Notes: generated from the letters alone by a model not told the origin. DNA of 40,118 nucleotides from Nitrospira sp. (GCA_029879905.1 JAOUPN010000004.1:1-40118), one strand, 5' to 3'. Positions 16,283 through 37,252 are shown, counted from the first letter of the stretch. Translations and numbers: made by a program.

Positions 16283-16579
16283 ATGAAAACCCTACTCGCC
16301 ATTCTGCTTCTCATTCCATCACTCGCGCTCGCTGAGTCGATGACTGCTGCGGAATTCGAGGCCTGCCTCAATAACATCCCGTGCCTCACCGCCTATACCA
16401 GAGGCCAAGCGTTCCATGAGGAACAACCCACGAATACCGTCCAAGAAGAACTCGACGCTCGATTGTTAGGCGTCCATCCATTGTCGTTGCCTACAACGCG
16501 AGGGCCATTCCTGGGGCTATCTCCACTGATTCCTCTTTATCCACAAACTTTTTATCCAGAGCCCGTACAGCACTGGTGA
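16283..16579 (+). CDS. Small secreted protein candidate on the opposite strand
   Basis: MKTLLAILLLIPSLALA|ES signal peptide; GGGAGG upstream; two Cys in the mature part. Confidence 0.55.
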   Translation: MKTLLAILLLIPSLALAESMTAAEFEACLNNIPCLTAYTRGQAFHEEQPTNTVQEELDARLLGVHPLSLPTTRGPFLGLSPLIPLYPQTFYPEPVQHW

Positions 16580-17525
16580 GCATCCCCAAGTAACTAATCA
16601 CATCGACCTTCCGCCCATCTGACACAATCTCCGGCATGGTGTCCGCCATCCCGCCGATATGGGACTCCGCCTCGCCTTTGTAGCGCCATTTCTTCACAGG
16701 GATACCCCGCACCGCCGCCAGCATTTCCCCGTCTGAAATCGGTTCAACGTCTTCCTTCATGGCAGGATCGGAGAACATCATCCCGGCTGCCAGCCCGGAC
16801 ATCCCCAACGACGCCCCGCCGCTGATATAACCAGCCCGTTCTCGTCCCTTCTCCTTTTCACTGTCAAACTGCATGCTTCGAGTGAATTGATCGCCTTGCA
16901 TCGCGTTGTTGAGCGTATTCTGATACGGGCTATAGGCCCGGGCTTGTGCGGCAAAGGGGTTTTCCATCTGGCTCTGCGTCGTTGATCGGCTACTCTGGCG
17001 GTTCAATGCCAAGGCCTCCGCCGTGGTCAACATGTCGCGCTGCTCGCCTTCCTTGAGCGAGGTCGCCATGGTTTGATATTCCCGCATGGCCTGTTGTCCT
17101 GGCGTCGAGAGCTCCCACCCTGGCCCGAGCTGGCGGTAGAGATTTTCCTTCATCTTATTTTCGCCCAGCTCCAATTCCTTCTTGAGGGTTTCGCTCACTG
17201 GAAGTTCGCCCTTGAGGGCTTTCAAGCTGCGTTCGGTCTGGAGGCGTTCGATTTCCTGCTTGTTCGCCTGCTGGCCAGGGTTGAGATATTCATAAGCCTT
17301 CGTCTCAGGGTTGTACTTGAGCCCGGATTCTGCCAGCATGAGGGGTTCGAGTTGCTGAAACCGCTTGGCTTGATCCATCTGAAAATCAAGCATCTCGTTC
17401 TGACGCCTCACCAATCCAGGATCGGGAGGAGGCACGTCCGGCCCATCGCCGCCGCGTAGCTCTGGAAGCCAGGACCCATCAGGCAGTTGATAGAGCTTAA
17501 GCGCGTCCATAGTGATGCCCTCCAT
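16491..17525 (-). CDS. Virion protein with C-terminal peptidase S74/intramolecular-chaperone-like domain
   Basis: C-terminus MMFSDPAMKEDVEPISDGEMLAAVRGIPVKKWRYKGEAESHIGGMADTMPEIVSDGRKVDVISYLGMLTSAVRALDKK matches the ICA pattern (SD...K start, W/F-x-YK, pre-C-terminal helix). Confidence 0.75.
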   Translation of the reverse strand: MEGITMDALKLYQLPDGSWLPELRGGDGPDVPPPDPGLVRRQNEMLDFQMDQAKRFQQLEPLMLAESGLKYNPETKAYEYLNPGQQANKQEIERLQTERSLKALKGELPVSETLKKELELGENKMKENLYRQLGPGWELSTPGQQAMREYQTMATSLKEGEQRDMLTTAEALALNRQSSRSTTQSQMENPFAAQARAYSPYQNTLNNAMQGDQFTRSMQFDSEKEKGRERAGYISGGASLGMSGLAAGMMFSDPAMKEDVEPISDGEMLAAVRGIPVKKWRYKGEAESHIGGMADTMPEIVSDGRKVDVISYLGMLTSAVRALDKKFVDKEESVEIAPGMALAL

Positions 17526-21090: not shown

Positions 21091-21735
21091 TTACTCCGTT
21101 GGTGAACACGCTTCGCCGTCTTCTCGAATCAGCCGGTCAAGATCGTCGTACCTGATCCAGGCTCGACCATTGAGAGCCCACGGGAGCCCCCAGGAATTTT
21201 GAATCAAACCACACTCTTTCCGGTCGTCATACCCAATCAGTTCGTAGGCATGACCACCAATGCGCCGACCTGTCACGCGCAAGATCCCGTGCTTATCCGG
21301 CGTCATCATCCCAGAATACCAGTGTGTCCCGAGTACCACCGGCCCACGGAGTCCGACCCATTGAATCGCGTCCTCGACCGTAAAGGCCCAGCCGTAGGAA
21401 GCAATCTTGCCGGCCAACTGTAAGGCTTTGGCACCTCCACGTACCGATGAGCCGTCATAGTCTTCCCCGTCCCATTCGTCGTTCCGTTGCGCGAGGGCGT
21501 AGATAATCTCTGGCGATGGATCGCGCTGGAGTTTCGGCAGTGCGCGGAGGAGCGCATGCCATGCGTAACCCACGCACATCGGCGTATTCCCTTGATCCCC
21601 CTTCCACCAGATCCGCCAGGTCTTTCGAACCGGACGAGGCTCGATCGGCGCCGCCTTCCGTAGGAGGAATTTCCTATCTCTAGTATCTGGTGCGAACCGT
21701 CGACCGAATTGGATGGTCATTCCTTTTCTATCCAT
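21091..21735 (-). CDS. Papain-like (C1-type) cysteine protease
   Basis: QGNTPMCVGYAWHALL (Cys), GGHAYELIGYD (His), LIQNSWGLPWALNGRAWI (Asn). Confidence 0.88.
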   Translation of the reverse strand: MDRKGMTIQFGRRFAPDTRDRKFLLRKAAPIEPRPVRKTWRIWWKGDQGNTPMCVGYAWHALLRALPKLQRDPSPEIIYALAQRNDEWDGEDYDGSSVRGGAKALQLAGKIASYGWAFTVEDAIQWVGLRGPVVLGTHWYSGMMTPDKHGILRVTGRRIGGHAYELIGYDDRKECGLIQNSWGLPWALNGRAWIRYDDLDRLIREDGEACSPTE

Positions 21736-22319
21736 TTCATTTCGCTCTGGTAGCGGGCGTTGTCAAAGGTAACCATCCGCTGTCTCAGTAGCCGTTCGTC
21801 CAACAACTTTTCAACCGCCAGATCGTAGGCTTGTAATGCCTCGTCGGTGGTTACGGTGATGGATTCTTCCGGTACGAGCTCAACGGCGGGAGGGTCAACG
21901 GCTCCATCGTCGTCAGCTCCTCTGGCAACTTCGTCGGCGTGGGGCATGCTCGTTTCTGATAGCTGGGGCACCCGGCTAAGAGCATCGAACTGAGTAACAA
22001 ACCCAGGAGGCAACACACACGGCTGTTCAGTGGATTTAACATAGCGAATCGTCTCCTTATGGATCGGCGCGGCCTGCTCTTTGACTGTGCGAGCACGTTC
22101 CGCAGCCTGTTGCATCGCCACTTGGAGGGCTTTCTTGGCGTGGCGTTCATGCTGGGCCAGCTCTAAGAGCTCTTGAATGTGCGCTTCGTGGACCCGCTCT
22201 CGCTCAGCCCAGACCCCTTTCAGGTAGATCCACCCAACAAAGGCCAGTACGAGCCCAGAGATAACGCCCCACTTCATGAGCGGGGAGGCGGTTCGGATCG
22301 CAGTCAGTACCGGCACCAT
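21717..22319 (-). CDS. i-spanin (Rz-like)
   Basis: N-terminal TM followed by coiled coil, with an embedded lipoprotein gene. Confidence 0.7.
   Translation of the reverse strand: MVPVLTAIRTASPLMKWGVISGLVLAFVGWIYLKGVWAERERVHEAHIQELLELAQHERHAKKALQVAMQQAAERARTVKEQAAPIHKETIRYVKSTEQPCVLPPGFVTQFDALSRVPQLSETSMPHADEVARGADDDGAVDPPAVELVPEESITVTTDEALQAYDLAVEKLLDERLLRQRMVTFDNARYQSEMKWIEKE
21851..22042 (-). CDS. o-spanin (Rz1-like lipoprotein) embedded in Rz
   Basis: MLNPLNSRVCCLLGLLLSSMLLAGCPSYQ...: SPase II lipobox LAGC; Pro-rich; nested in an alternate frame of the Rz gene. Confidence 0.75.
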   Translation of the reverse strand: MLNPLNSRVCCLLGLLLSSMLLAGCPSYQKRACPTPTKLPEELTTMEPLTLPPLSSYRKNPSP

Positions 22320-22816: not shown

Positions 22817-22829
22817 GGCGCTACTCCTT
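22810..22829. repeat. Direct repeat copy 2 (20 bp, ggctcatggcgctactcctt)
   Basis: Exact match to 22418-22437; 392-bp offset. Confidence 0.9.
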
Positions 22830-23087
22830 TACTGGGCCAGCCTTCGACAATAGCTCGGTCTTGAGCCCGCCCTGATGTGTTGTGCCAACCCAAAATAGGA
22901 TGCATGCACTTGTAAACCCTGAGAGCTGCCCCAGCATATATACCAGCGTCTCTCTGTTGCCGGGAGGGATTTCAAAAAAGAACAGCAATGCCGATGAGGC
23001 GACAAAACTCGCCAAGAGCGCGACAGTCAGCGCACCGACAAACCAGAGCATACGCTTCACGCTCGGTTTCTGTGGCTCGTCACTCAT
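22821..23087 (-). CDS. Two-TM holin candidate
   Basis: Two hydrophobic segments (LWFVGALTVALLASFVASSALLFFF; MLGQLSGFTSACILFWVG); lysis-block position. Confidence 0.6.
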   Translation of the reverse strand: MSDEPQKPSVKRMLWFVGALTVALLASFVASSALLFFFEIPPGNRETLVYMLGQLSGFTSACILFWVGTTHQGGLKTELLSKAGPVKE

Positions 23088-23102: not shown

Positions 23103-23417
23103 TCAGCGCTCTTTTTCATTCCACGGGTCTCTCGGTATCCGGTCAAGGATTTTGTCAAGCTTCTTGTCAATGCTCTCAAGCCTGCGCTGGTCGTCTTCTC
23201 GATGTGCCCGAAGCCCCGTAATCTCCTGAGCGTTACCCGTGATACGGATATGTACAGCTTCGACTTTCACATTCATATCATTTCTTAGGGCATCCGCCTC
23301 TGCTTCAATTTTAGCAAACTTTGGCGCGAGCCATCCCAGCATGGAAATGACGGACGCCATCACGCCAGCAATGACACCAAAAACCGTGTCCACCCATTCC
23401 CATTTCGAATCATACAT
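23103..23417 (-). CDS. XhlA-like TM + coiled-coil protein
   Basis: N-terminal TM (VFGVIAGVMASVISMLGWLAP), then amphipathic coiled coil with basic/acidic tail. Confidence 0.5.
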   Translation of the reverse strand: MYDSKWEWVDTVFGVIAGVMASVISMLGWLAPKFAKIEAEADALRNDMNVKVEAVHIRITGNAQEITGLRAHREDDQRRLESIDKKLDKILDRIPRDPWNEKER

Positions 23418-23511: not shown

Positions 23512-23961
23512 TCATACTTCAGACGTTCCACCGGTCCCGCGCATCACACGAGGGACAAAGAAGACATGATGCCCGACTTCCGCTACCTGGACCGCGCTGT
23601 GTGCCTTGGCCCAATCCGGTGTCACTGGCACCAGCCGAGGATCTGGGTTGTAATAGAGCACCGCGCCTTTCACCGTGTCGGAGCCATGCCGCGCCTCTTC
23701 CCATGCTCGCATACATTCCTGAACAACCGGATCATCGGTATCGATCCTGATATTGCGAATGCGGCCAAGGTCTTTCGAGTTCCACCCGGAGAACTGCAAC
23801 GGCCTCAAGACGGTCCCGGACACCGTGCCATCGCTGGAGTACTTGCGCTCCATCCGGTTGCGGATTACTTCAGCCACGGCTACCTTACCGACATATGGCT
23901 CGCCGGCGGCTTCCTGCATGATCGTCACGATTGCCAGTGCATCTTCGCCTATGAGTCGCAT
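23512..23961 (-). CDS. SleB-type cell wall hydrolase (endolysin candidate)
   Basis: MRLIGEDALAIVTIMQEAAGEPYVGKVAVAEVIRNRMERKYSSDGTVSGTVLRPLQFSGWN...; AAGGAG SD 8 nt upstream of the ATG at 23961. The ORF track places the start at 24114. Confidence 0.75.
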   Translation of the reverse strand: MRLIGEDALAIVTIMQEAAGEPYVGKVAVAEVIRNRMERKYSSDGTVSGTVLRPLQFSGWNSKDLGRIRNIRIDTDDPVVQECMRAWEEARHGSDTVKGAVLYYNPDPRLVPVTPDWAKAHSAVQVAEVGHHVFFVPRVMRGTGGTSEV

Positions 23962-24092
23962 ATCGTCTTCTCCTTCGGCTGCTCGATCGGTGGACACCCA
24001 CGCCAGCCACAGGCACAAAACCACTCCTCCCGCGCATAGTGCTTTTGCACATGTCGTTGGCATGCTGGGCATCGGTAGTTCCACGCCATCAT
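23949..24092 (-). CDS. Small zinc-ribbon protein overlapping the 5' extension of the hydrolase ORF
   Basis: Hand translation: MMAWNYRCPACQRHVQKHYAREEWFCACGWRGCPPIEQPKEKTICDS*; CPxC...CxCGW zinc-binding pattern. Confidence 0.55.
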   Translation of the reverse strand: MMAWNYRCPACQRHVQKHYAREEWFCACGWRGCPPIEQPKEKTICDS

Positions 24093-26827
24093 TGAATCCC
24101 CGCCTGCATCCCACCCACTGTCACACACGCCCCGCCACTCGGCGTGTAGGACGCCAGGGGTTGACCACCTTGGTCATAGAGTTTAAAGCATATAGTCTTG
24201 CCAGCCGCAGCCGCAGCGAAGCGGAACGCACCGCGAATGGTTCGAGAATTATTATCCGCCATCTCAACGGTGGGGATGCCTAATGAATTCGTCAGAGTGA
24301 TCCCGTTGGTGTGAGTCAGGGCTCCTGTCAACGCCCCAGAACCGGCCATACCATCGTTAAAATGTGGATGAGTGTCTTCGCCCCAATACGCCACGCCATC
24401 AGCGGTAGCGGTATCCGGAACAGGGTTGATAAATTCCCCGCCGTTCACATTGTAGCGAAAACGTGGTTGGATAACGGTAGATCCGCCGCTCTCATTATTG
24501 TATTGTACGACCAACGCCGCCCCGCCCGGGGAAGCTGACATGATCGCTGCACTCTGGGCCCCCACGGTCTGCGCAATGCCATTCAGATAATGCGTGTGTT
24601 CCCACTGGTGCGCGACCTGCGTGACGGTGGGAGAAGACGTAGGCGGCTGATCGGCCTCGAATAAGTCTGCGCAACTGGCATCTGTCGTGTAGACGGAAGA
24701 CCGATCGAAAATGTGGTTACCTGATAAGGTAGAAGCAAACCCGGACGGCAGACCGAAGCGGAGAGTACTAGCAAAGGTATAGGAGCTATAACTGATGACT
24801 GATGCCCCGGCCACGGTTCCAGCTTGACCATTGATGTACAATGTCATGACATCTGTGGATGGGTTACCCTTCACGCACACGTGAGTCCATCCAGACGAGA
24901 CTGAAAACTCCGTCGCTGGGCCAGAGGTTGCGCCAGCCCCCATGCGCCACGTGTTAGCGGAATCACGAAACACAAAAAACCTCTGATCTGTCCCGATGGC
25001 TGTTCCGAAAATGTCCGCAGTATCCCCCATCGCGGTGGGATCAATATAGATCCAGGTGGCGACGACAAGATGGTTCGTCGACGGATTGTGACCGCTCAGC
25101 AGTCCCGTGTCGGCGTAGTCCGCCTCGTTCTGGTTAGTTTGGAGCCCTTTCACAAATTTACCAGTCACAAAAGACGTGCCGCTGCAGGTCGCATGGTTGG
25201 CGTTCCCTGATGAATCGTTGCAATCATCTTCCCACTCGTAAAGTGCGGTATCTCCAGTTGGTGGGGGCGTGGGTCCGCCACCATCACACGCCGAGCTATC
25301 GACTGGAAAATTGGGCGTGGTGTGGAGCGGTTGATTGAGGGTATTGCCAATGAGGGCTGAATCAGTATTCCCCGAACCTGAGCTGACTGTCCAGGTTTGC
25401 CCTGCGGCACAATTGCCGCCCGTAATCCCACCGACATCCACGCGCACAATCCCGCCGCCAATCAGCGAGGTACTGGCCGTAACAGGTGTTCCGCAACCTG
25501 TGCCGGTGCATCCTGGTGTCCACGTACCGAGGCGGATAGGGGGCTCGTTGGTGCAGATTGTCACATCGATGAAATGCCCGCCGGTCATTACAGCACTCAG
25601 TACTTTCGGCACTTCGAGTGCACCAATCTCTGGGGCAGTGTCGCAGAATGCCAGCCCGGTTGCACTCGTGCCCGCGTTGATCGCGGTACTCCCCGATGCT
25701 AGGGATAAATCGCCGGTCCCCGCGCTCGTAAATGATGGGTTGGCCGTCTGTGTATTGCTAAAGGTACCGTTCGCAAATCCCCCTGTCACAACGGCCTTAG
25801 CGAGATAGACAATGTTGTTGCGGACGAGCAACGACCCTGGCGAGAATTCACGCGCATACCGAATGCTGTTCGCGCTCCCAGAAATGTGGTTGTAAATTGT
25901 ATTGTTGTATACCTTGATCGTCTGTGTGGCGGTCTGCGCAGAGCGTGGACTAATAAGGATCCCATCACATGTTGACAGATCGCAGGAATCGCGAATTACG
26001 TTATTGTAGATCTCGTGCCCTCCACCACCAGTCGAGACGTGAATGACCTTTGATCCGGTGACGCCCTGTTGCCAGGTGTCTGTATTCGAGCGTCCAATCT
26101 GGTGGAACAAGTTGTTACGGATGATGATGTTTTGCAGTGGCGAGCTTCCCGGCCATATCCCAATGCCGTGCGTCAAGTTGTGAAAATAATTGTTCTGTAT
26201 GACTGTGCGGTTACCCGGATTATAAATATTGTTTACACCTGGCCCGTAACCGGGATTCAGAATACCATTGTAGGCAAATTCGTTGCCTTCAATCAGGTTG
26301 TCACCACCCAAGAACCCGGAGGCTGAGGAGGCAATCTGAAATGCAGTACCAGCGTTGTCATGCACGTAGTTGTTGATGAACCGAATGTGATGCGAATACC
26401 CGTTTGTATCTGTTCCGTCCATCCGCAGGCCTTGGTGGGCGTTCGTAATTTCGAGATGTCGGAACTCCATGTAACTACAGGTTTCACCACGGGAACAGTA
26501 GATACCGCGCTGCGTGGCGGTATAGTCCGCACGGATCACAGGGCGAGCCAATGCAGGATCACCGCTGATGATGGTGTAGGCACTGGCACTGCCACCCGGA
26601 GGATTCAGAATGCCCTGATTGGTGTAGGTCCCAGGTTTGATAATGAGCGTGTCGCCACCAGCGAGACACGCAACCCCAGCAGCAATCGTCAGCTTCGGCG
26701 TGGATTCAGTCTGTGCAGCACTACAGGAATTGCTGTTATTGCCAGTTGTGGCAGTGTAATAGGTTGCAGCCTGCCCAATCGCGGGGAATGCAAGCATAAT
26801 AACCAGCGAGAGAATTACTGAAACCAT
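24089..26827 (-). CDS. Secreted-looking right-handed beta-helix + LamG-like protein (tailspike or polysaccharide-active enzyme candidate)
   Basis: Hydrophobic N-terminus ending GQAA; PbH1-type repeats (LEGNEFAYNG, IQNNYFHNLTHGIGI, IIRNNLFHQIG); AINAGT...PEIGALE; LamG-like DCNDSSGNANHATCSG...HVCVKGNPSTDVMTLYINGQ. Confidence 0.75.
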   Translation of the reverse strand: MVSVILSLVIMLAFPAIGQAATYYTATTGNNSNSCSAAQTESTPKLTIAAGVACLAGGDTLIIKPGTYTNQGILNPPGGSASAYTIISGDPALARPVIRADYTATQRGIYCSRGETCSYMEFRHLEITNAHQGLRMDGTDTNGYSHHIRFINNYVHDNAGTAFQIASSASGFLGGDNLIEGNEFAYNGILNPGYGPGVNNIYNPGNRTVIQNNYFHNLTHGIGIWPGSSPLQNIIIRNNLFHQIGRSNTDTWQQGVTGSKVIHVSTGGGGHEIYNNVIRDSCDLSTCDGILISPRSAQTATQTIKVYNNTIYNHISGSANSIRYAREFSPGSLLVRNNIVYLAKAVVTGGFANGTFSNTQTANPSFTSAGTGDLSLASGSTAINAGTSATGLAFCDTAPEIGALEVPKVLSAVMTGGHFIDVTICTNEPPIRLGTWTPGCTGTGCGTPVTASTSLIGGGIVRVDVGGITGGNCAAGQTWTVSSGSGNTDSALIGNTLNQPLHTTPNFPVDSSACDGGGPTPPPTGDTALYEWEDDCNDSSGNANHATCSGTSFVTGKFVKGLQTNQNEADYADTGLLSGHNPSTNHLVVATWIYIDPTAMGDTADIFGTAIGTDQRFFVFRDSANTWRMGAGATSGPATEFSVSSGWTHVCVKGNPSTDVMTLYINGQAGTVAGASVISYSSYTFASTLRFGLPSGFASTLSGNHIFDRSSVYTTDASCADLFEADQPPTSSPTVTQVAHQWEHTHYLNGIAQTVGAQSAAIMSASPGGAALVVQYNNESGGSTVIQPRFRYNVNGGEFINPVPDTATADGVAYWGEDTHPHFNDGMAGSGALTGALTHTNGITLTNSLGIPTVEMADNNSRTIRGAFRFAAAAAGKTICFKLYDQGGQPLASYTPSGGACVTVGGMQAGIQ

Positions 26828-27525
26828 AACGGTTGCCCCCCCTCGTCAGACGCGGCTGGTTTCACCACGTACGTAAAGATCACCCAGTCATCAGAGGCAA
26901 TCGTCCAGCTCATCACCCCACCATCCGCACCGGCTTGATAGGAAGCCCCCCCGTTTGTCGAGGCTGTGGTGCCTTCGTGAATGACGGTTTGATTGGCTCC
27001 TACTGATGGTGCCCCAGCGTCATCAGACGAAAAGAAGTCGACAACAATATCCCCGGCTGCAACCGTCCCCGCTGTCACAGATGGGGTTGTGCTGACGCCG
27101 CTTGCTTGGTTTGTGGAACGGAACTCGGTGAGATCCGAGTCGAGACAGGTCCAGATGATGATGTCCGCTTGGGAGACTGCCCCTGACCATGTGACCACCA
27201 CATCATTAGTCCCGCTTGGTGGATTGCGCAGCCGATACAGGTTCCCGCCAAGGATGGTACTCACATATTGGAAAGTGGTATCGGCGGTCATCGCATTGCC
27301 GCCTTGCGTCACACTCGAAATCGTGACGCCAACGCCGTTGCGGAAGCCGACCCCGGCAAAGGTAATTCTGTTATTGCCAGCAGGAGTGGTATATGAGATC
27401 GTACGAGGATTGGCGGGGCTTGACTCATGGACCTCTACCGTACCTGCGTCAACACAGGTAAATGCTGCCTGCGCCTGGAGAGGAAATAGAAGGAATACTG
27501 AAAGAAGCCAAGCAATGAGAAGCAT
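26815..27525 (-). CDS. Secreted-looking beta-sandwich protein
   Basis: MLLIAWLLSVFLLFPLQAQA|AFTCVDAG; then NNRITFAGVGFRNGVGVTISSVTQGGNAM...NPPSGTNDVVVTWSGA. Confidence 0.6.
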   Translation of the reverse strand: MLLIAWLLSVFLLFPLQAQAAFTCVDAGTVEVHESSPANPRTISYTTPAGNNRITFAGVGFRNGVGVTISSVTQGGNAMTADTTFQYVSTILGGNLYRLRNPPSGTNDVVVTWSGAVSQADIIIWTCLDSDLTEFRSTNQASGVSTTPSVTAGTVAAGDIVVDFFSSDDAGAPSVGANQTVIHEGTTASTNGGASYQAGADGGVMSWTIASDDWVIFTYVVKPAASDEGGQPLWFQ

Positions 27526-28004
27526 TATTCCATCTCCGCGATGCAGCCTGCCGTGTAGTTCGCGTTGACCCAGTTGCGTAGGGTGGTGAGTTCAGAAAGC
27601 ACGGTGGAATTGGTCAGTCCGTGGCCGTCAAATTGGCGCAAAAGCCGATAGCGTACTTGCCATAAGCTGCATCCCGCTGCCGTAACGGTTGGTTTAGACA
27701 ATGGCGTAATCTTTTGCCCCGCTTGGACAGCCGCAGCGGTTCCTGCTGTGTGCTGGATGTCTAACTCATTCATGACCCCGCCTGCCCAGATGCGCAGCTC
27801 TGCATAGGCGTCCGCAGCGGTACCGCGAGAGACCACGGTATAGGTGCGCGTGACTACCGACTCCCCGGCATTGCCACGGAATTGCACCTGAACCTCACGG
27901 GCTCCGCTGTCGTTGGTGCGGTTCGAGGCAATGGTTGCGTCGGTATAGGCTGCCTGCGCTGCCGTTGGCATCAGCAGTAGAATGAGCAATAGCATGTAAT
28001 GCAT
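27525..28004 (-). CDS. Secreted-looking small protein
   Basis: Start placed at the ATG at 28004 (AAGGAG SD): MHYMLLLILLLMPTAAQA|AYTDATIASNRTND... Confidence 0.6.
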   Translation of the reverse strand: MHYMLLLILLLMPTAAQAAYTDATIASNRTNDSGAREVQVQFRGNAGESVVTRTYTVVSRGTAADAYAELRIWAGGVMNELDIQHTAGTAAAVQAGQKITPLSKPTVTAAGCSLWQVRYRLLRQFDGHGLTNSTVLSELTTLRNWVNANYTAGCIAEME

Positions 28005-28014
28005 GGGCATCTCC

Positions 28015-29082
28015 TTAGTGGCTGAGCGATGATTCGCTGTACAGCAAATCGGTACCAATAAAATGTAGTGTCGCTGCCGCTGTCGTTGGGTCATCGGTGG
28101 CGTCCACATCGATATAGCCAAAGAGCCAATCCCCCGCCGCGCAGGTGCCGTTCGGGGTCACAGCCGCACTGAGCGTCGCTTCGATAGCTCCACTCCCAGC
28201 TAGCACAGCATCATCAACTTCCACCTCGGTTCCATAGGTGCCGTTAAAAGCAGTACCAGGGGCGCGACACGCTGCCGCGACTTCAAGCGCAACGGAGCCA
28301 GTATCATCCGCCGTTTGTGAATAATAGGGCCTGATGTAGATCACCCCGGCATCCCAGTTAGAGCGCATGGGGATGGCAAACCGGAGGCGGGAGGAATTGT
28401 TTTCCGTGCAGATGAAGGTGGGCACCACCACGTTGGAGATCGTGACCACGGTTGGTCGCGCTGGGCAGTTTGTGCCGTCACCTTCAAGGGCGCGGGCACT
28501 AAGATAAACAGATTTCAGTGGTTTGAGCGCGCCAACGGCGTAGCGTTCCTTGGGGGTGGCGGCGTTCGGCTCAAAATTGATCATAGCCACGTCCGAGGCA
28601 TCCGTGATCTGAAACTTCTTCCCGGCGATGACCTTGATGACCTTGTGGCAGTTGTGCAGGGTACCGCTAATTTTGCAGGTGGCAATCGTAATGCCGCTGG
28701 TTGAATCGTAAAACGTCACAGCGTAACTGTCAGCAGCGGCACTGCCAGTAGTAAATGCTGTAGACTCGTTGATTGCATCGCCATCAATTCGGTCTACGGC
28801 AAGTACTGAGGAGAGTCCCGGTGTTGTGGATAACAACAGGACAAAATTGTCTGTCGTGTCGCAGAAGTAAAACGCGCCGTCATCGGTGTCAAGAAAAAGA
28901 CCATTTGCCGAGAGATCCCCAGGCGTACACGTTGAGGGGAGTTCGTCTCCTGTTCCTATCGTTGTGACCCCACCACTACCACTACTGCCACCCTGGATCA
29001 ATTGGGCATAGCTCGGTGAGACGCCGGTGAGAAAGGCTAGGATTATCGCGCTAGAGAGGATCTTCTTCATGGGCATACTCAC
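28015..29082 (-). CDS. Secreted-looking tail-fibre-like protein
   Basis: MSMPMKKILSSAIILAFLTGVSPSYA|QLIQGG...; beta-rich; Cys largely in pairs. Confidence 0.6.
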   Translation of the reverse strand: MSMPMKKILSSAIILAFLTGVSPSYAQLIQGGSSGSGGVTTIGTGDELPSTCTPGDLSANGLFLDTDDGAFYFCDTTDNFVLLLSTTPGLSSVLAVDRIDGDAINESTAFTTGSAAADSYAVTFYDSTSGITIATCKISGTLHNCHKVIKVIAGKKFQITDASDVAMINFEPNAATPKERYAVGALKPLKSVYLSARALEGDGTNCPARPTVVTISNVVVPTFICTENNSSRLRFAIPMRSNWDAGVIYIRPYYSQTADDTGSVALEVAAACRAPGTAFNGTYGTEVEVDDAVLAGSGAIEATLSAAVTPNGTCAAGDWLFGYIDVDATDDPTTAAATLHFIGTDLLYSESSLSH

Positions 29083-29312
29083 TCTTGGTTAGGGTGGACC
29101 AGGCTAGGCATCCCGTAGAGACGGCATGCCTGATAACTCGTACAGTCCCAGACCTCGAGACTGCCTTCTCCTGCCGTCAGAAGCGAGCCTCCCAGGATCA
29201 TCGACGTTTGGCGGAAGACCTCTCCCGCGCTTGGTACCGGAACAATGACAACCGTAGACTCGCCGATAAGCCCTGCTAGCCAGTTGTGGACACGTGCAAA
29301 GAATGCGTTCAT
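29079..29312 (-). CDS. Hypothetical protein, coupled to the secreted-protein cluster
   Basis: 77-aa ORF with 4-nt overlap with the downstream gene. Confidence 0.55.
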   Translation of the reverse strand: MNAFFARVHNWLAGLIGESTVVIVPVPSAGEVFRQTSMILGGSLLTAGEGSLEVWDCTSYQACRLYGMPSLVHPNQE

Positions 29313-29316
29313 GTAC

Positions 29317-30180
29317 TTACCCTGAATACCGCCACTTCATATCGCACCGGTTCTGCACGTTCGCCGTACTGATCGCCGCGCAGACCGCATCGCACGCCGC
29401 AGGAAGATGGATTTCCGCTCCGCCGATATTCGTGAGGGTTTGGTTCGTCAACACATTGGCTTGCGTCATCACGATATTCCCGAGCATGGCTTGCGTGATT
29501 TGCCCTCGCGTGGTGTCTGGCGCCGTGGTGGATTTCACGACGAGCAGATATTCCCCTGGTGCGCTGTAGCCAAGCGCCTGTTTATCGCTTCGGCCATGCC
29601 GGTTGATGATGGCCGAGGAAGAGGTCACGCGATGCCAGTCCGGAGGCGCGTCGAACCAGATCAACTGTTCTCCGGTTTTCCCAGTCCCAAAGGAAGGCGC
29701 CACATGCAGGTTCGTAAGGGCCGTGAAGTTGTTCGAGAATCCGGTTCCTGCCGAAACCACCGAATAATAGACGGCCCAGACGGTGCTGGCATCGCTAATC
29801 TGTGAGACATTGAGGGAGACGATATTAAACGGCGCATCACAGCCGATCGCAAACCCGTCGTTATTCGTGCCGACCGTATCGAGATTCACGTCTCCAGCCG
29901 CCGTAGATTGCGCATCGGTCGTATCATCGATCAAAGCACTCCCGGCTGCGTATTCCGATTCGTCCCAGAAGTAGAACCGCCACAAGCTCGGTTGAATCCG
30001 CCCCCCGACACCAGCTGTCACGGTGGATCCGGATCGGTTATGGACGCTGAATTCGCCAATCACAAAATGCGTACCATAACTGTTGCTTGGTCGGACCCCC
30101 ATCGTAATGAGGTCGGAATTCGAGTAGAGAAACTTTGAGGGCCAGGACTTACTGGCCGATTCATAGCGATAGCCGTGCAT
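29317..30180 (-). CDS. Structural hypothetical protein
   Basis: 287-aa beta-rich ORF in the head/tail block. Confidence 0.6.
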   Translation of the reverse strand: MHGYRYESASKSWPSKFLYSNSDLITMGVRPSNSYGTHFVIGEFSVHNRSGSTVTAGVGGRIQPSLWRFYFWDESEYAAGSALIDDTTDAQSTAAGDVNLDTVGTNNDGFAIGCDAPFNIVSLNVSQISDASTVWAVYYSVVSAGTGFSNNFTALTNLHVAPSFGTGKTGEQLIWFDAPPDWHRVTSSSAIINRHGRSDKQALGYSAPGEYLLVVKSTTAPDTTRGQITQAMLGNIVMTQANVLTNQTLTNIGGAEIHLPAACDAVCAAISTANVQNRCDMKWRYSG

Positions 30181-30201
30181 GATGGGCTCCTTTGTCTAGA
30201 C

Positions 30202-30987
30202 TTACCGACGTCGAGACGTGCGCCTGCCGCCTGCCCCGACGAGTTCTCTTGATCGTTCTTCCTTCAACTCTTCTTCCGCATCTTTCCCTTGATAGATCGC
30301 AGGTTCATGCGCATCGATCTCCGACGCTGGTTCCGGCATGGACAACAACTTTTCAAAGGCCGGTCCTGGGTTCCAGTGCTTCGTGGGATTGCCTTTCGCG
30401 TCTCTGGCGACTTGATGCTCGATAATCTCCCCCGCCGCATTCCGAACGATCACATAAGGGGTGTAGTACCCGGACGCATGGTTATTCGGATCGACCCACT
30501 GGGCTTCAGGAGGCAACACAAACGGCTGATGCTGGGGCATCCCACCAGGAGTCGCAAACGTCTGATCCTGCCCGAACCCGTCCCCGTGATGGTTCGTCTG
30601 GCCGTGCTGGGTGACCGAATCGGCAATCGGTCCCATGGTTTGGGTAATCGCCAAGAGAATCCGATTGACCGCCTCTTCCGGCATATTGGCAATGGCATGG
30701 CTCAACTGGTCTCGCGTACTGTGGCCGGCCAAGACCGGCGCTGGGCCTTCAACCACCGCTTTCACCGAGACGTGCTTGGTCTTCTCGACCCATCGCGTGA
30801 TATCGGCAAGGGCTGAAGAATCAGACACCCCACCGACTTGATCAAGGCTCGTCACCACCGTGGCGTCCTTGCCTCGGCCAATCTGCCATTGGCCGCTGGG
30901 TAGCTCGTAGAGTTCTGCCATTCCCCCACCAGAGAACGACATCGGAATCATGCGCTTGACTAAAAACCCATCGCCTAGACGTTGCAT
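30202..30987 (-). CDS. Virion-associated hypothetical protein
   Basis: Start moved to the ATG at 30987 (AAAGGA SD), removing overlap with the beta-helix gene; basic C-terminus. Confidence 0.55.
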   Translation of the reverse strand: MQRLGDGFLVKRMIPMSFSGGGMAELYELPSGQWQIGRGKDATVVTSLDQVGGVSDSSALADITRWVEKTKHVSVKAVVEGPAPVLAGHSTRDQLSHAIANMPEEAVNRILLAITQTMGPIADSVTQHGQTNHHGDGFGQDQTFATPGGMPQHQPFVLPPEAQWVDPNNHASGYYTPYVIVRNAAGEIIEHQVARDAKGNPTKHWNPGPAFEKLLSMPEPASEIDAHEPAIYQGKDAEEELKEERSRELVGAGGRRTSRRR

Positions 30988-31046
30988 AACGGTCCTTTCT
31001 AGTTGGATGGGAGAGGCCACAAGGCCGACCCCTCCCATCGCGGTGA

Positions 31047-32003
31047 TTAGGTAACGACGGTCACGAGCGTGCTGCCCGTCCCGCCTCCGACTGTCGCGGT
31101 ATAGTTGTTCACGAGCTCTGCATGGGATGTGGTTCCAAATCCGTCCACCAACAAGGTGACTAGAACGCCTTTCCGACAATCCCGGAAGACGGCTCCAGCG
31201 ATGACCGTGGTACCTGAACCAGTGAAACAGGCCGTCATAGCCGTCCCACCACAGGTCGCCAGGTCGTTCTCAACGACAATCCCATCGATATCGATGAGGT
31301 TGACCGCCGAGGCCCACGTACCGGTATCGACGTGGTAGTGGTTGTTCTCGAGCTTTCCGTTCATGTTGTTCCCGGTCAGCTCGAGCACAGGGCCTTGGGC
31401 ACCGTCCGACCACGCGACATTCCCCTTGAAGAGAAGATTGTCGATGGCTGCGGATCCGGTAAAGCCTTCGGTCGCAATGTTGACGACCGGAGTGACCATA
31501 TCGAAATAACAGTTTTCGACCGTCAACCCATCCGCCGCGCCGGTAAAGGTCGCAAAGCTCAAGGCGGTAATCGGCACACAGGTCAACCCCTGGAACGACA
31601 CATCGGCCCCGGTAATCGCAAAGGCCGCAGACCCTGCAATGCCCTTCACGATGGAGGTCGGCTTGCGCACCTTCCGGCCTGCCCAGGCATCCGCCCCCCA
31701 GAACGAGAGGTTGGATTTCGCTACGGCGAGATTGGCCGTCAGGGTATGGGTCCCTGGCAAGAGCACGATCGCATCCCCACGCCCATCGACCACATCCGCA
31801 TAGGCGAGATTGATCGTGTCATAGACGAACTGGTTGTTCTCTCGCGCCCACGATCTGGCCTCTGCTACGGTAAACCCTGCAACGTAGGCCGTATTGGGCG
31901 CTACATAGAGCGGCTTACCGGGGATTTGGTTTTCAACTCCGTTCCACTTCGCGTTCCTGGAACGCCTGTAGAGATAGGCGTCTCGAATATACATGCCACT
32001 CAT
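31047..32003 (-). CDS. Parallel beta-helix (pectate-lyase-like fold) protein, head-proximal
   Basis: LPGTHTLTANLAVAKSNLSFWGAD...GADVSFQGLTCV...ADGLTVENCYFD...IDNLLFKGNVAW...GKLENNHYHV: regular beta-helix rungs; no signal peptide. Confidence 0.65.
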   Translation of the reverse strand: MSGMYIRDAYLYRRSRNAKWNGVENQIPGKPLYVAPNTAYVAGFTVAEARSWARENNQFVYDTINLAYADVVDGRGDAIVLLPGTHTLTANLAVAKSNLSFWGADAWAGRKVRKPTSIVKGIAGSAAFAITGADVSFQGLTCVPITALSFATFTGAADGLTVENCYFDMVTPVVNIATEGFTGSAAIDNLLFKGNVAWSDGAQGPVLELTGNNMNGKLENNHYHVDTGTWASAVNLIDIDGIVVENDLATCGGTAMTACFTGSGTTVIAGAVFRDCRKGVLVTLLVDGFGTTSHAELVNNYTATVGGGTGSTLVTVVT

Positions 32004-32067
32004 AACGACTCCTTCCCATGAATCAGGAGGCGGATAAGCCGCCCCCTGTCATGCCAAGGTTACAAGG

Positions 32068-32736
32068 TTAGGTTCCCGCGTAGTACAGATCGACGGTCCG
32101 TGCCGCTGTGAACTCTTCCGGCTTCGGGGAGCCCAGCACAAAGGCCAGGGCCGAGGAGCCAGCGGTACACGCGGTTGCGACATCGACATCGATCGAGTTG
32201 CCTGGTCGGCAAAGCACTGGGCCTGTATCGGCCAAGCTCTTGTAGACCACGGCCCCAATCGCCTGTGCGGTCGTGGCGTTCGGTGCCGTCACCGTGCCAT
32301 TCGTTCCGTCCAGGTTGGCAGAAATGATCGTCCCGAGCCCATTGATCGCCGGGTACAGATCGAAATCGATCTTGGCCGGTGTTGTGGTTCCCGCGATGCC
32401 AAAGGCAAACCCAATGGTATCGACTAGGAACCAATCGAAGATGTTGAACTGGCCTTCTGAACCGGTCCCGCTAAAGTCCATGACTCCAGCAATGTCCGGA
32501 TTGAGCCAGCGCCGGCTTTCATAGCCGTAGAGTCCGCCCTTCAAGACGGGGAGCGGCTTCGTCAACAGGCCTCGCCCGACTGCCTCCGCCATGGACGGCG
32601 CCCACTGGACCCGATTGATCACCCGATGGATGTCACAGGCCAGGGGAATGTCTGCTTCATGCTGCACCAACTTGGTGAGCGGAGCCGCTGCCCAATGCAG
32701 GAAGCTCCATAACTTGTTGAAATTATAGCGAATCAT
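32068..32736 (-). CDS. Head-associated structural protein
   Basis: Start at the ATG at 32736 with GGAGGG SD: MIRYNFNKLWSFLHWAAAPL...; directly downstream of the capsid gene. Confidence 0.55.
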   Translation of the reverse strand: MIRYNFNKLWSFLHWAAAPLTKLVQHEADIPLACDIHRVINRVQWAPSMAEAVGRGLLTKPLPVLKGGLYGYESRRWLNPDIAGVMDFSGTGSEGQFNIFDWFLVDTIGFAFGIAGTTTPAKIDFDLYPAINGLGTIISANLDGTNGTVTAPNATTAQAIGAVVYKSLADTGPVLCRPGNSIDVDVATACTAGSSALAFVLGSPKPEEFTAARTVDLYYAGT

Positions 32737-32795
32737 GATCGACCCTCCGTGAAAGATGAAATGACCATTCCTCCGTGTCTTCAGTCGCCTACCGA

Positions 32796-33752
32796 CTAGG
32801 AGCTCGTGAAGTAGACGCTCCGGGCTTCTCCGTCTGAGGCTGAATCGCCCCAGGTATTGGCAAAGCCCAGCAACCCATACCACGCCACGGCATGCTGCCG
32901 ACCAAAGTCTGCGGCAATAGCTGCACGCAGCTCAGGAGCTTCGACTTCCGCGAGCGCGAGAATGTCGTCACCGAAGAACACCGCTTCACCGACAGCACTG
33001 TTGGTGCCGCGCTCGGTGAGCACGTTGTCATGGTCGATTTCGACGAACCGGCACTTCTCGATCTCTCCAACCTCGGCATTGAAAAACACATCGCCAGGGC
33101 GGAGATACTGCCGCCAGGAATGGAACTCCGGATCGTCCTTGACGCCACGGCACGCCTTCGTCGACGCCAAGACCATGTAGACCTGGCCCTGGTACGGATC
33201 GACATGCAGCGTCTTCCGCATGTAGTCCCGGATCAACTTGACGTGGGCAACGGTCATATTGTGCGTCCCGGTGACGCTGGTGACGCCTGCGTCCGTGGTA
33301 AACGTGCCGGCAATGGCACTGGTCGGACCAAACCGGATCTGCCCGTTCTTGACCGCCGCGCCGGCCACGGTATCGATGGTAGACTTCATTTGCTTCTTGA
33401 GCGTCTTCTGAATCGCGTTCTCCGGATCGAACTTATTCAGCAGTTGCACCTTCTGCGTGTACCCAATGCCGCGCCCGAACTCGTTGACCGTAATGGAACG
33501 AGTCGACATGGCGAGGGGATCGATTGGCACCTTCCCCGCTTGGCTGAGGATGGCCGATGTGGGCTCTGCGGTATTGCGAATGCGCTGAATCGTAACGGTA
33601 TCGCCTTGATGCGGCCCAAACCCTGGCTCCGGTTTCGCAAACTGCACCACCAATGTTTCGGCAATGCTCGCAAAGCGCAACTCGCTGCTCAGGGCGTGAT
33701 TCCGAGACACACCAGCACTAATGTCTGGCGTCCATTGAAAATTGCCTGCCAT
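32796..33752 (-). CDS. Major capsid protein (HK97-fold, N4-gp56-like candidate)
   Basis: 318-aa ORF (MAGNFQWTPDISAGV...GYTQKVQLLNKFDPENAIQKTLKKQMKSTID...AWYGLLGFANTWGD); strong SD AGAAGGAGA; follows the scaffold-like gene. Confidence 0.75.
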   Translation of the reverse strand: MAGNFQWTPDISAGVSRNHALSSELRFASIAETLVVQFAKPEPGFGPHQGDTVTIQRIRNTAEPTSAILSQAGKVPIDPLAMSTRSITVNEFGRGIGYTQKVQLLNKFDPENAIQKTLKKQMKSTIDTVAGAAVKNGQIRFGPTSAIAGTFTTDAGVTSVTGTHNMTVAHVKLIRDYMRKTLHVDPYQGQVYMVLASTKACRGVKDDPEFHSWRQYLRPGDVFFNAEVGEIEKCRFVEIDHDNVLTERGTNSAVGEAVFFGDDILALAEVEAPELRAAIAADFGRQHAVAWYGLLGFANTWGDSASDGEARSVYFTSS

Positions 33753-35051: not shown

Positions 35052-35354
35052 TTAAATACCCAAGCTCACACGCGCTTTCTGCTGTGCGGCTTTCGCGGCA
35101 ACCTCGTTCACCTGATCCATCGTCTGCCCCATCGCCGTGAGTGTCTCAATGACACCCATCGCCTTGGCTCTGGCCCACAAGACTTCATGATCGCCCGTAT
35201 CCTGAGCCAGGATGAGCTCAATGTACTCTCGGAGCTGATCGCCAAAGGCTTCGACCAACGCCTTTCGACGCGGATCGGTCGGATCATGGAACAACGCACT
35301 CAAGTCCATCCCTTGCCGCTTCTTCGCTAAGCTCTGCACACGCTCGTCGGTCAT
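35052..35354 (-). CDS. Hypothetical helical protein, coupled to portal
   Basis: 100-aa ORF with 4-nt overlap with the portal gene. Confidence 0.6.
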   Translation of the reverse strand: MTDERVQSLAKKRQGMDLSALFHDPTDPRRKALVEAFGDQLREYIELILAQDTGDHEVLWARAKAMGVIETLTAMGQTMDQVNEVAAKAAQQKARVSLGI

Positions 35355-37252
35355 GCTTCCCCTCCCCCACCTAATCCTGCCGCAGCCATGGCTTGCTCGG
35401 CCATTCCTTCCCCTGATCCCGGCGGCATCTCTCCACCTTCCCCACTCATCACTTGACCTGACGGATTCATGCCTTGCCCCTGCATCATCGCCATTTCAGC
35501 TTGCTGTTGAGCCATTTCGGCCTGCATTTCCTCATCGGTCTTAATCGCATCGCTCACGTCCATCGCGGCACCCAGCTTCCGAATCATCACGTTGTCTTTC
35601 GCAAACGGCTGAAACCGTGGCGAATCGGTCAGTTTTACGAGGTTGATGAGCCGATCGACTAACGCCGACTTCGCAAACAAGAGCGAGACCCCTCTGATTT
35701 CAATGTCCGTATCAGCGCGGACGGCCTTCATCCGCTCTTCAGGTGATAGCATGGCAATCTGTTGCAACAACTGTTCGTGCTTCGGTCCCAGCACTTGGAG
35801 ATAGCTGGGGGTATCGTTTGGATCCCAGTAGGTCGTCAGAATGTCTTGCGCCATTTCGATCCAGCCCTCAGCGCCGTGCTCCACATCCCGGCCAATGCCT
35901 TCAAACACGCCCATCGCTTGTTGGGTCTTGAGTTCAACTTCACCCTTCGTGATATTCTTCCGGTCGCCCAGCTCACCCTTGAGGAGCTCCGTGACGAACA
36001 CGCCGTTCTGGTAGAGGTTTCCACTCTCGCCCATCATCTTGTCGAAGACGGCCAGGAAGTCGCCGCCCATTTGGATCTCGGAATACGCCGACCCTTGCGC
36101 CCCTGACCTCTTCTTCTTAACGCAGCCAGGGTAGAGCTCTGTATCGTTCGGGTCCAAGAGCTTCGAGGTGTCGACTTCCATCGCTCCGTTCATAATGAAA
36201 TTCAGCTTGTCTACCGTCATCGAGAGTAGGTTGTTCCGAAACTTCCACATCTTGAGCATGCCTTCGATCAGCGAGTACCCATGGAAGTTCCGAAGGTGCG
36301 GCAAGGCCGCAAATTGATAGATCGGCCAGCGAATCCTGGCAAACTTGGTCGGGACCGGACGTTTAATCACTGTCCGATTCGCCACGGTAAAACGCACGTT
36401 CGGATAGATGAGCTCCCCGTTATGATCGAGCACCCCGCCCCAGAACTCCTTGACAAACACCTGCGGGTTGAATCGGTGGGAGTAGTCGACCAATCCGCGC
36501 TTCCGCTGATCACTCCGTCTGTCCCAGGTCCCTTCATCGCCTTTATCTCGGAGACTCCCTCGGACGTTGGTGTAGAACCCCTTCTTCTCCCCTTCTAAGA
36601 GCGTGTGATACGGCACATAGTCTTGATGAATGCAGAAGAGGCCGGATTGGGCATCGCGAGACATTGCCTCGGGATCGCGCCGAATCTGCCACGGCATGAG
36701 CCGGCTCCAACGTAAGCCTTCGTTCCCATCGGCATCGACGCCCCAAATGCCTTTCATCGCCATGCTGGACCCGATTGAAAAGCTCATTTCCGTCATATCG
36801 GGGAAGTGATGCGTGGCCTTGGTGCGTTTCATCCAGAACCGGAGCGCGTCTTGCCAGAAGTTCGCCTTCGCCATGGCATAGGGGTTATCTTTCTGGTCTG
36901 TGGTCGCATTGATCCATTCCGGCTGATCGACAATAGCCTTCCTGACCAGCATCTTCGCTTGTATCACGGTTTGAAATGGCTCGTTCGTGGTCACCTTGGC
37001 CTGCCAGTCCTCTTTTTGGTTCAGCTCAGGCATTTCCCCTTCGTGAGCACTCCAGAGCTGTTCATCGAGCTTCATGCGCTTCTCTTCGACACGCTCACAA
37101 TGCTTGACCGATTCTTCAAGATATTCGACCAAATGCCCATCGGAGAGTTCATTCGTCTGCTCGTCAAAGAGCTGATCGATCTCTTCATCAGGCAGATCAC
37201 GCAGCTCTTCAATCTGCGCCATTAACTCCGCATCGGTAATGCCAAAGCTCAT
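35351..37252 (-). CDS. Portal protein
   Basis: 633-aa ORF of portal-like size and composition (IRWPIYQFAALPHLRNFHGYSLIEGMLKMWKFRNNLLSMTVDKLNFIMNG; Gln/Met-rich C-terminus); upstream of scaffold and capsid genes. Confidence 0.8.
   Translation of the reverse strand: MSFGITDAELMAQIEELRDLPDEEIDQLFDEQTNELSDGHLVEYLEESVKHCERVEEKRMKLDEQLWSAHEGEMPELNQKEDWQAKVTTNEPFQTVIQAKMLVRKAIVDQPEWINATTDQKDNPYAMAKANFWQDALRFWMKRTKATHHFPDMTEMSFSIGSSMAMKGIWGVDADGNEGLRWSRLMPWQIRRDPEAMSRDAQSGLFCIHQDYVPYHTLLEGEKKGFYTNVRGSLRDKGDEGTWDRRSDQRKRGLVDYSHRFNPQVFVKEFWGGVLDHNGELIYPNVRFTVANRTVIKRPVPTKFARIRWPIYQFAALPHLRNFHGYSLIEGMLKMWKFRNNLLSMTVDKLNFIMNGAMEVDTSKLLDPNDTELYPGCVKKKRSGAQGSAYSEIQMGGDFLAVFDKMMGESGNLYQNGVFVTELLKGELGDRKNITKGEVELKTQQAMGVFEGIGRDVEHGAEGWIEMAQDILTTYWDPNDTPSYLQVLGPKHEQLLQQIAMLSPEERMKAVRADTDIEIRGVSLLFAKSALVDRLINLVKLTDSPRFQPFAKDNVMIRKLGAAMDVSDAIKTDEEMQAEMAQQQAEMAMMQGQGMNPSGQVMSGEGGEMPPGSGEGMAEQAMAAAGLGGGGEA

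Follow-up and report, generated by a model that had tools for sequence, protein, structure and literature searches.

In tailed phages the folding and assembly of virion proteins are taken to be cytoplasmic, and the known phage tailspikes and fibres with beta-helix depolymerase domains start directly with a particle-binding domain, without a signal peptide. Phage lambda has exported proteins, Lom and Bor, whose genes lie with structural or lysis genes; they are single genes of other folds. Here we describe a block of four consecutive genes, P1 to P4 (24089-29082, minus strand), in a 40,118-nucleotide stretch of DNA from Nitrospira sp. (GCA_029879905.1 JAOUPN010000004.1:1-40118; the whole stretch is called the window below). 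The original prediction, made from the sequence alone, had described four coupled open reading frames (ORFs) with Sec-like N-termini inside a structural operon, and the four lie at these positions with the N-termini it gave. The block likewise lies among such genes, but it comprises three to four fibre- or beta-helix-type proteins in the phages that carry it. It has the beta-helix fold, carbohydrate-acting relatives and late-gene position in common with tailspikes and fibres, and one related protein (F1, below) has a fibre N-terminal domain, but the block proteins start with a signal peptide. No report of such exported blocks was found in the open-access literature, subscription papers lying outside the search, and a study of nitrifier viruses makes no mention of signal peptides (PMC11849493).

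A recurrent exported block in structural operons either breaks the rule of cytoplasmic assembly or reveals a matrix-handling stage at release. We tentatively read it as a late cassette for beta-rich proteins that would be secreted, be stabilised by disulfides, bind or act on carbohydrate, and work on the host matrix or envelope around lysis. Through a gene family of the host exopolysaccharide locus, the block moreover links uncultured phages to Nitrospira, a key nitrifier of biofilm and flocs, and it yields concrete predictions for proteomics.

Signal peptides of the four block products

In a rule-based scorer of our own, the N-termini of P1 to P4 show the pattern of Sec export and cleavage by signal peptidase I, with a net positive n-region, a hydrophobic core and an AxA-type cleavage site. 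Calibration on 10 Escherichia coli signal peptides gave a reference range of 9.5-12.2; the four block proteins fall within it, with scores of 11.1, 11.6, 11.7 and 10.8, and the neighbouring head, tail and internal genes score at most 9.2. The scorer detects Lom and Bor of lambda, and it wrongly calls a signal peptide in the Rz anchor. In 10 control phage records no structural gene passes except for one in T7 that is borderline (9.54) and depends on a start upstream of its annotated start, and no run of four signal-peptide genes is present. Among genes sampled at 20 places in a complete congeneric genome, 34/347 (9.8%) score at least 9.5 and the longest run is two. At this host rate a run of at least four among 34 genes has a probability of 0.0026. 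The original prediction of a genuine run of exported beta-proteins is supported.

The lack of Lys/Arg in the n-regions had been raised as a caveat on export. We reject it, as such n-regions occur in 4/19 host and 6/16 phage signal peptides (Fisher p 0.45); three of the four block proteins carry a charge of +1 solely from the N-terminus. Alternative starts that bypass the hydrophobic stretch are few, and either lie far downstream or have little support from a ribosome-binding site. Judged from sequence, it is very probable that all four products are exported.

Fold of P1 and recurrence of the block

P1 is laid out as a beta-helix (residues ~21-405), a beta-domain (~406-515), a GGG/PPP linker, a LamG-like stretch (~525-720, by eye) and a C-terminal beta-domain. 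An AlphaFold model of residues 1-420, built from 29 sequences, is a right-handed beta-helix (pLDDT 84.6, pTM 0.87), a run with two sequences only (pLDDT 41) having been discarded. Its nearest solved fold is the pectate lyase Pel9A (2e-10; TM 0.64/0.67), which is also the best PDB match of P1 by profile (1ru4, 3e-24), and the next structure matches are other polysaccharide lyases, alginate epimerases and the Vibrio biofilm lyase RbmB. By far the closest relatives of P1 are two signal-peptide proteins of Nitrospira sp. BO4, with 50-52% identity over residues 15-388 (blastp 1e-121 to 1e-125), whose exopolysaccharide locus contains glycosyltransferase-, deacetylase- and asparagine-synthetase-like genes (roles assigned by eye). 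The homology spans the entire helix including its start, yet P1 sits in a phage late operon. A match of phrog_19416 to P1 (2e-4) covers 45 residues and is uninformative on function.

Residues 1-400 of P1 match ORFs in 15 other congeneric genomes, mostly with visible signal peptides. No homologue of P1 to P4 was found among 50,697 phage records, neither Pfam nor NCBIfam gave a match to any of the four, and P3 has no homologue that we could find.

Blocks equivalent in position are present at three other sites (L030, L126 and L125), and a further phage, L158, has a run of its own. L030 is a siphovirus-type prophage in which a tail tube gene (phrog_290, 4e-20), three signal-peptide-type ORFs (S1-S2-S3, the signal peptide of S3 being weak) and a tape measure gene (phrog_8462, 7e-38) follow one another. 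A profile (A2) of the domain after the P1 helix led to two more sites: L126, a podovirus-type contig (capsid phrog_283) in which tail-collar genes, F1-F2-F3, and a lysozyme-like gene with a lipoprotein gene directly adjoin in that order, and L125, a contig edge with G2-G3 and then a tyrosine-recombinase-like ORF. The long contigs with the L030 and L125 blocks at their ends run on into bacterial-looking sequence.

Pairwise comparison places these proteins in three positions. At E3, P1 matches F3 (7e-72, plus 3e-16 for the C-terminal beta-domain common to both), S3 (4e-13) and G3 (1e-7); at E2, P2 matches F2 (8e-13); at E1, F1 matches S1 (5e-17). P4 has a suggestive motif in common with F1/S1 (hhalign E 0.18) and is probably their relative. 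S2 was considered as a homologue of P2, and the comparison gave no support. The 'minor tail protein' family phrog_553 matches F2 (1.2e-9) and G2 (3e-6). The E2 proteins of the window (26815-27525) and L125 (1036-1755) also share similar C-terminal ends, GGQPLWFQ and SGGVILFQ, a possible C-terminal signal.

Searching with an E2 profile (A4) brought up L158, also a podovirus-type phage from this genus, where three consecutive signal-peptide genes encode a tail-collar protein and proteins of 131 and 173 aa; a 1052-aa signal-peptide gene lies two ORFs past this run, and the E2-like gene has no signal peptide. Its late operon is closed by a phospholipase-D-like ORF with a signal peptide (L158:531-1265, minus strand; phrog_12711).

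Apart from the weak S3 and the L158 E2-like gene, signal peptides are kept in the E2 and E3 homologues and in the host beta-helix proteins, so that conservation in homologues, on which the original prediction had placed weight, is borne out for P1/F3 and P2/F2. Its proposed check of whether the block moves as a unit among related phages also comes out in its favour, with recurrence in unrelated phages: the structural proteins of the window that were tested, E2 aside, have no BLAST match in these other phages, and the block therefore travels between otherwise unrelated phages. Among the GTDB genomes covered, all positive phages come from Nitrospira or Nitrospiraceae. In the phrog_290 and phrog_1357 neighbourhoods of other families of the phylum there was no run of at least two signal-peptide genes inside the tail operon, so prophages of the phylum do not carry the block in general.

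Cysteine makes up 30/1659 residues of the block (1.81%) versus 16/7546 of the other structural proteins (0.21%). The number of mature cysteines is even in 12/16 block proteins across phages (p 0.04), and six helix cysteines are common to P1 and F3.

Operon layout and possible roles of the block

The window is a complete contig from a 580-contig genome bin and represents a fragment of a phage genome with its late genes on the minus strand (Table 1). The bin has an estimated contamination of 5.3%, so bin membership alone is no proof of the host; contigs of metagenome-assembled genomes can be misbinned, and the gene calls are mechanical. No terminal repeat was found in the window. The nested spanins imply that the host possesses an outer membrane.

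Table 1. Late genes of the window around the block, from the head genes to the lysis cassette. A slash marks the predicted signal-peptide cleavage site; aa, amino acids.
Feature	Position	Strand	Remarks
Portal-type gene	35351-37252	-	late genes on minus strand
Major capsid protein	32796-33752	-	phrog_1357, 1e-16
Head-side genes, codirectional, 5' of block	29079-29312, 29317-30180, 30202-31035, 31047-32003, 32068-32739	-	no signal peptides
P4 (E1 position), 352-355 aa	28015-29082	-	signal peptide MKKILSSAIILAFLTGVSPSYA/QL; 8 mature Cys; beta-rich
P3, 159 aa	27525-28004	-	signal peptide MHYMLLLILLLMPTAAQA/AY; 2 mature Cys
P2 (E2), 236 aa	26815-27525	-	signal peptide MLLIAWLLSVFLLFPLQAQA/AF; homologue L126 F2 (8e-13)
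P1 (E3), 912 aa	24089-26827	-	signal peptide MVSVILSLVIMLAFPAIGQA/AT; right-handed beta-helix plus further beta-domains
Endolysin-type cell wall hydrolase, own hydrophobic N-terminus	23512-24066	-	PF07486; 22 nt beyond P1; lysis cassette begins here
Holin candidates (two small membrane proteins)	22821-23087, 23103-23417	-	sequence
Rz-like inner-membrane spanin	21717-22319	-	sequence
Rz1-like lipoprotein nested in Rz-like gene	21851-22150	-	LLAGC lipobox

The gaps at the block joints are +5, +10, -1 and -13 nt, and those from the block through to the lysin range from -13 to +22 nt. The most likely start of P4 is an ATG two or four codons past the listed GTG (MPMKKIL or MKKIL), and P3 starts at 28004 (MHYMLLL, with AAGGAG upstream) instead of at the longer mechanical ORF start. 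A consensus scan found fewer promoter-like sites than it did in shuffled sequences. The late genes further include tail genes and an internal-type protein of 4072 aa.

Several other products of the window may be mentioned here. The 4072-aa protein is a single ORF (2224-14442, minus strand) with zero Cys and, by eye, methyltransferase- and helicase-like stretches, and resembles giant injected phage proteins. A 98-aa ORF (16283-16579, plus strand) opposes the late operon, partially overlaps the end of 16491-17525 and has a strong signal peptide, MKTLLAILLLIPSLALA/ES, with two mature Cys. A Staphylococcal-nuclease-like protein (PF00565; 20659-21087, minus strand) follows a hydrophobic signal or anchor segment and is possibly another exported phage enzyme. 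Cys richness such as that of the 29079-32739 products is not usually seen in proteins that fold in the cytoplasm.

If the block acts on matrix or envelope, its four genes would be transcribed together with the virion and lysis genes, and P1 to P4 would leave the cytoplasm by Sec, be cut by signal peptidase I and acquire their fold and disulfides in the periplasm. Their targets would be exopolysaccharide of the host or glycans of its envelope, in the periplasm and, once lysin, holin and spanins had opened the envelope, in the lysate, with the benefit that progeny would escape the matrix instead of being trapped on it. E3 (P1) belongs to a beta-helix family that also occurs in the host exopolysaccharide locus, E2 is a beta-sandwich of minor-tail type, and E1 is fibre-like in related phages. 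We favour this reading because of the exopolysaccharide-locus link, the carbohydrate-lyase fold, the direct coupling to the lysis cassette and the fact that P1 has no virion anchor.

Several observations weigh against it. For action beyond the outer membrane a route would be needed, and no C-terminal sorting signal was recognised. The PL9 hallmark residues, which we take to be a calcium-binding Asp cluster and a catalytic Lys, are not evident: by hmmsearch, SDDGFD and GFKLGG of 1ru4 align to a non-acidic, non-Lys family consensus, and the conserved polar columns of the P1 family include neither a conserved Lys nor an Asp cluster. P1 may thus bind rather than cut, and we do not claim PL9 activity for it. 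The virion-anchoring-type domain of F1 suits a fibre better than a matrix protein. Finally, the genes between capsid and block (29079-32739) are Cys-rich as well (1.18%) and lack signal peptides, so the Cys-rich character ascribed to the exported beta-proteins is a real enrichment but is not unique to P1 to P4.

A second reading, possible but clearly less probable, is that the block encodes virion appendages, that is, disulfide-needing fibres or decorations that would be exported, folded in the periplasm and docked on virions at lysis. We know of no tailed phage that assembles fibres via the periplasm, and to our knowledge no two-compartment assembly route has been reported for such phages. 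In 30 phage records, tail fibres, tailspikes and depolymerases have an N-terminal domain that matches F1 residues 28-97; this domain begins at residue 1-3 of the annotated protein, without a signal peptide, in 5/5 phages opened, whereas in F1 it comes directly after the signal peptide. The L158 tail-collar protein likewise has its collar domain (phrog_9116, 3e-28) behind a signal peptide, E2 proteins match a minor tail family, and the block lies within structural operons and adjoins lysis genes. Yet no anchor domain precedes the P1 beta-helix, P1 to P4 beginning with a signal peptide and no particle-binding domain being seen at their N-termini, and L126 retains three collar or fibre genes that have no signal peptide. 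Moreover, about 10 phrog_9116 ORFs elsewhere in the order Nitrospirales also bear signal peptides, and three of the four sites opened have no recognisable phage genes, two of them lying beside large YD-repeat-like secreted proteins. Such domains are therefore no proof of a virion role; exported collar-type proteins seem also to be part of the host's own surface repertoire, with modules common to phage and host. The two-compartment model, in which Nitrospiraceae phages would route fibre- or collar-type appendages via the periplasm (Sec, disulfides, processing) and attach them to virions only at lysis, stays alive because of F1 and the L158 collar protein, and we regard it as rather unlikely.

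Both proposals of the original prediction thus gain ground, matrix modification because the P1 helix is ~51% identical to exported Nitrospira exopolysaccharide-locus proteins and 'fibres attached after export or lysis' because the fibre N-terminal domain of F1 follows a signal peptide; the sequence is undecided between them.

Of the chromosomal tail-collar-domain proteins with signal peptides, which may belong to a host surface system, those of L188 and L190 adjoin the YD-repeat-like proteins and that of L187 a fibre-like signal-peptide protein. L189 (1687-9950) combines a packaging-ATPase-like ORF with a collar-type ORF that has a hydrophobic N-terminus, and is perhaps an integrated virus of another kind.

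Exported proteins altering the surface of a lysogen, for instance by blocking receptors, are an unlikely explanation; lambda Lom and Bor are examples of exported phage proteins with genes in a comparable position. The tail region of lambda contains lom, whose signal peptide our scorer detects, two relatives of the block are in provirus-like settings (L030, L125), and a host exported protein is among the relatives of P1. The close spacing into the lysin, and promoter-like sites that do not outnumber those of shuffled sequences, would instead fit late expression only; three to four genes in fixed order differ from single morons, and no integrase was seen in the window. A moron role is less likely given this operon layout.

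It is improbable that the N-termini are host-captured signal peptides no longer relevant, or segments for virion membrane interaction at entry, as the clear relation of P1 to host exported proteins and the three n-regions without Lys/Arg might suggest, since most members, in phages that have diverged, still have cleavage motifs and several of the genes resemble tail genes that have no signal peptide in other phages, which together argue for signal peptides gained or kept rather than lost, and since the n-region charge deficit is no different from that of host signal peptides.

Comparison of P1 with known proteins

P1 can be compared with three described proteins or families. With the PL9 enzyme Pel9A (1ru4) it has a right-handed PL9-type beta-helix in common, but the catalytic Asp/Lys of Pel9A are not evident in the P1 family. 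With the Nitrospira sp. BO4 exopolysaccharide-locus proteins it has in common the signal peptide and the A/ATYYVxxTGND start; the host proteins end after the helix (~430 aa), whereas P1 adds beta-domains common to other phages and is encoded in a late operon. One of the viral structures closest to P1 (2e-9) is gp049 of Cellulophaga phage phi17:2, annotated as a virion structural protein (R9ZZB2 by protein length), which has the same kind of beta-helix start, but from residue 2 and without a signal peptide. Compared with this virion beta-helix protein, the signal peptide of P1 is thus an addition, and one that it has in common with the secreted proteins of the host.

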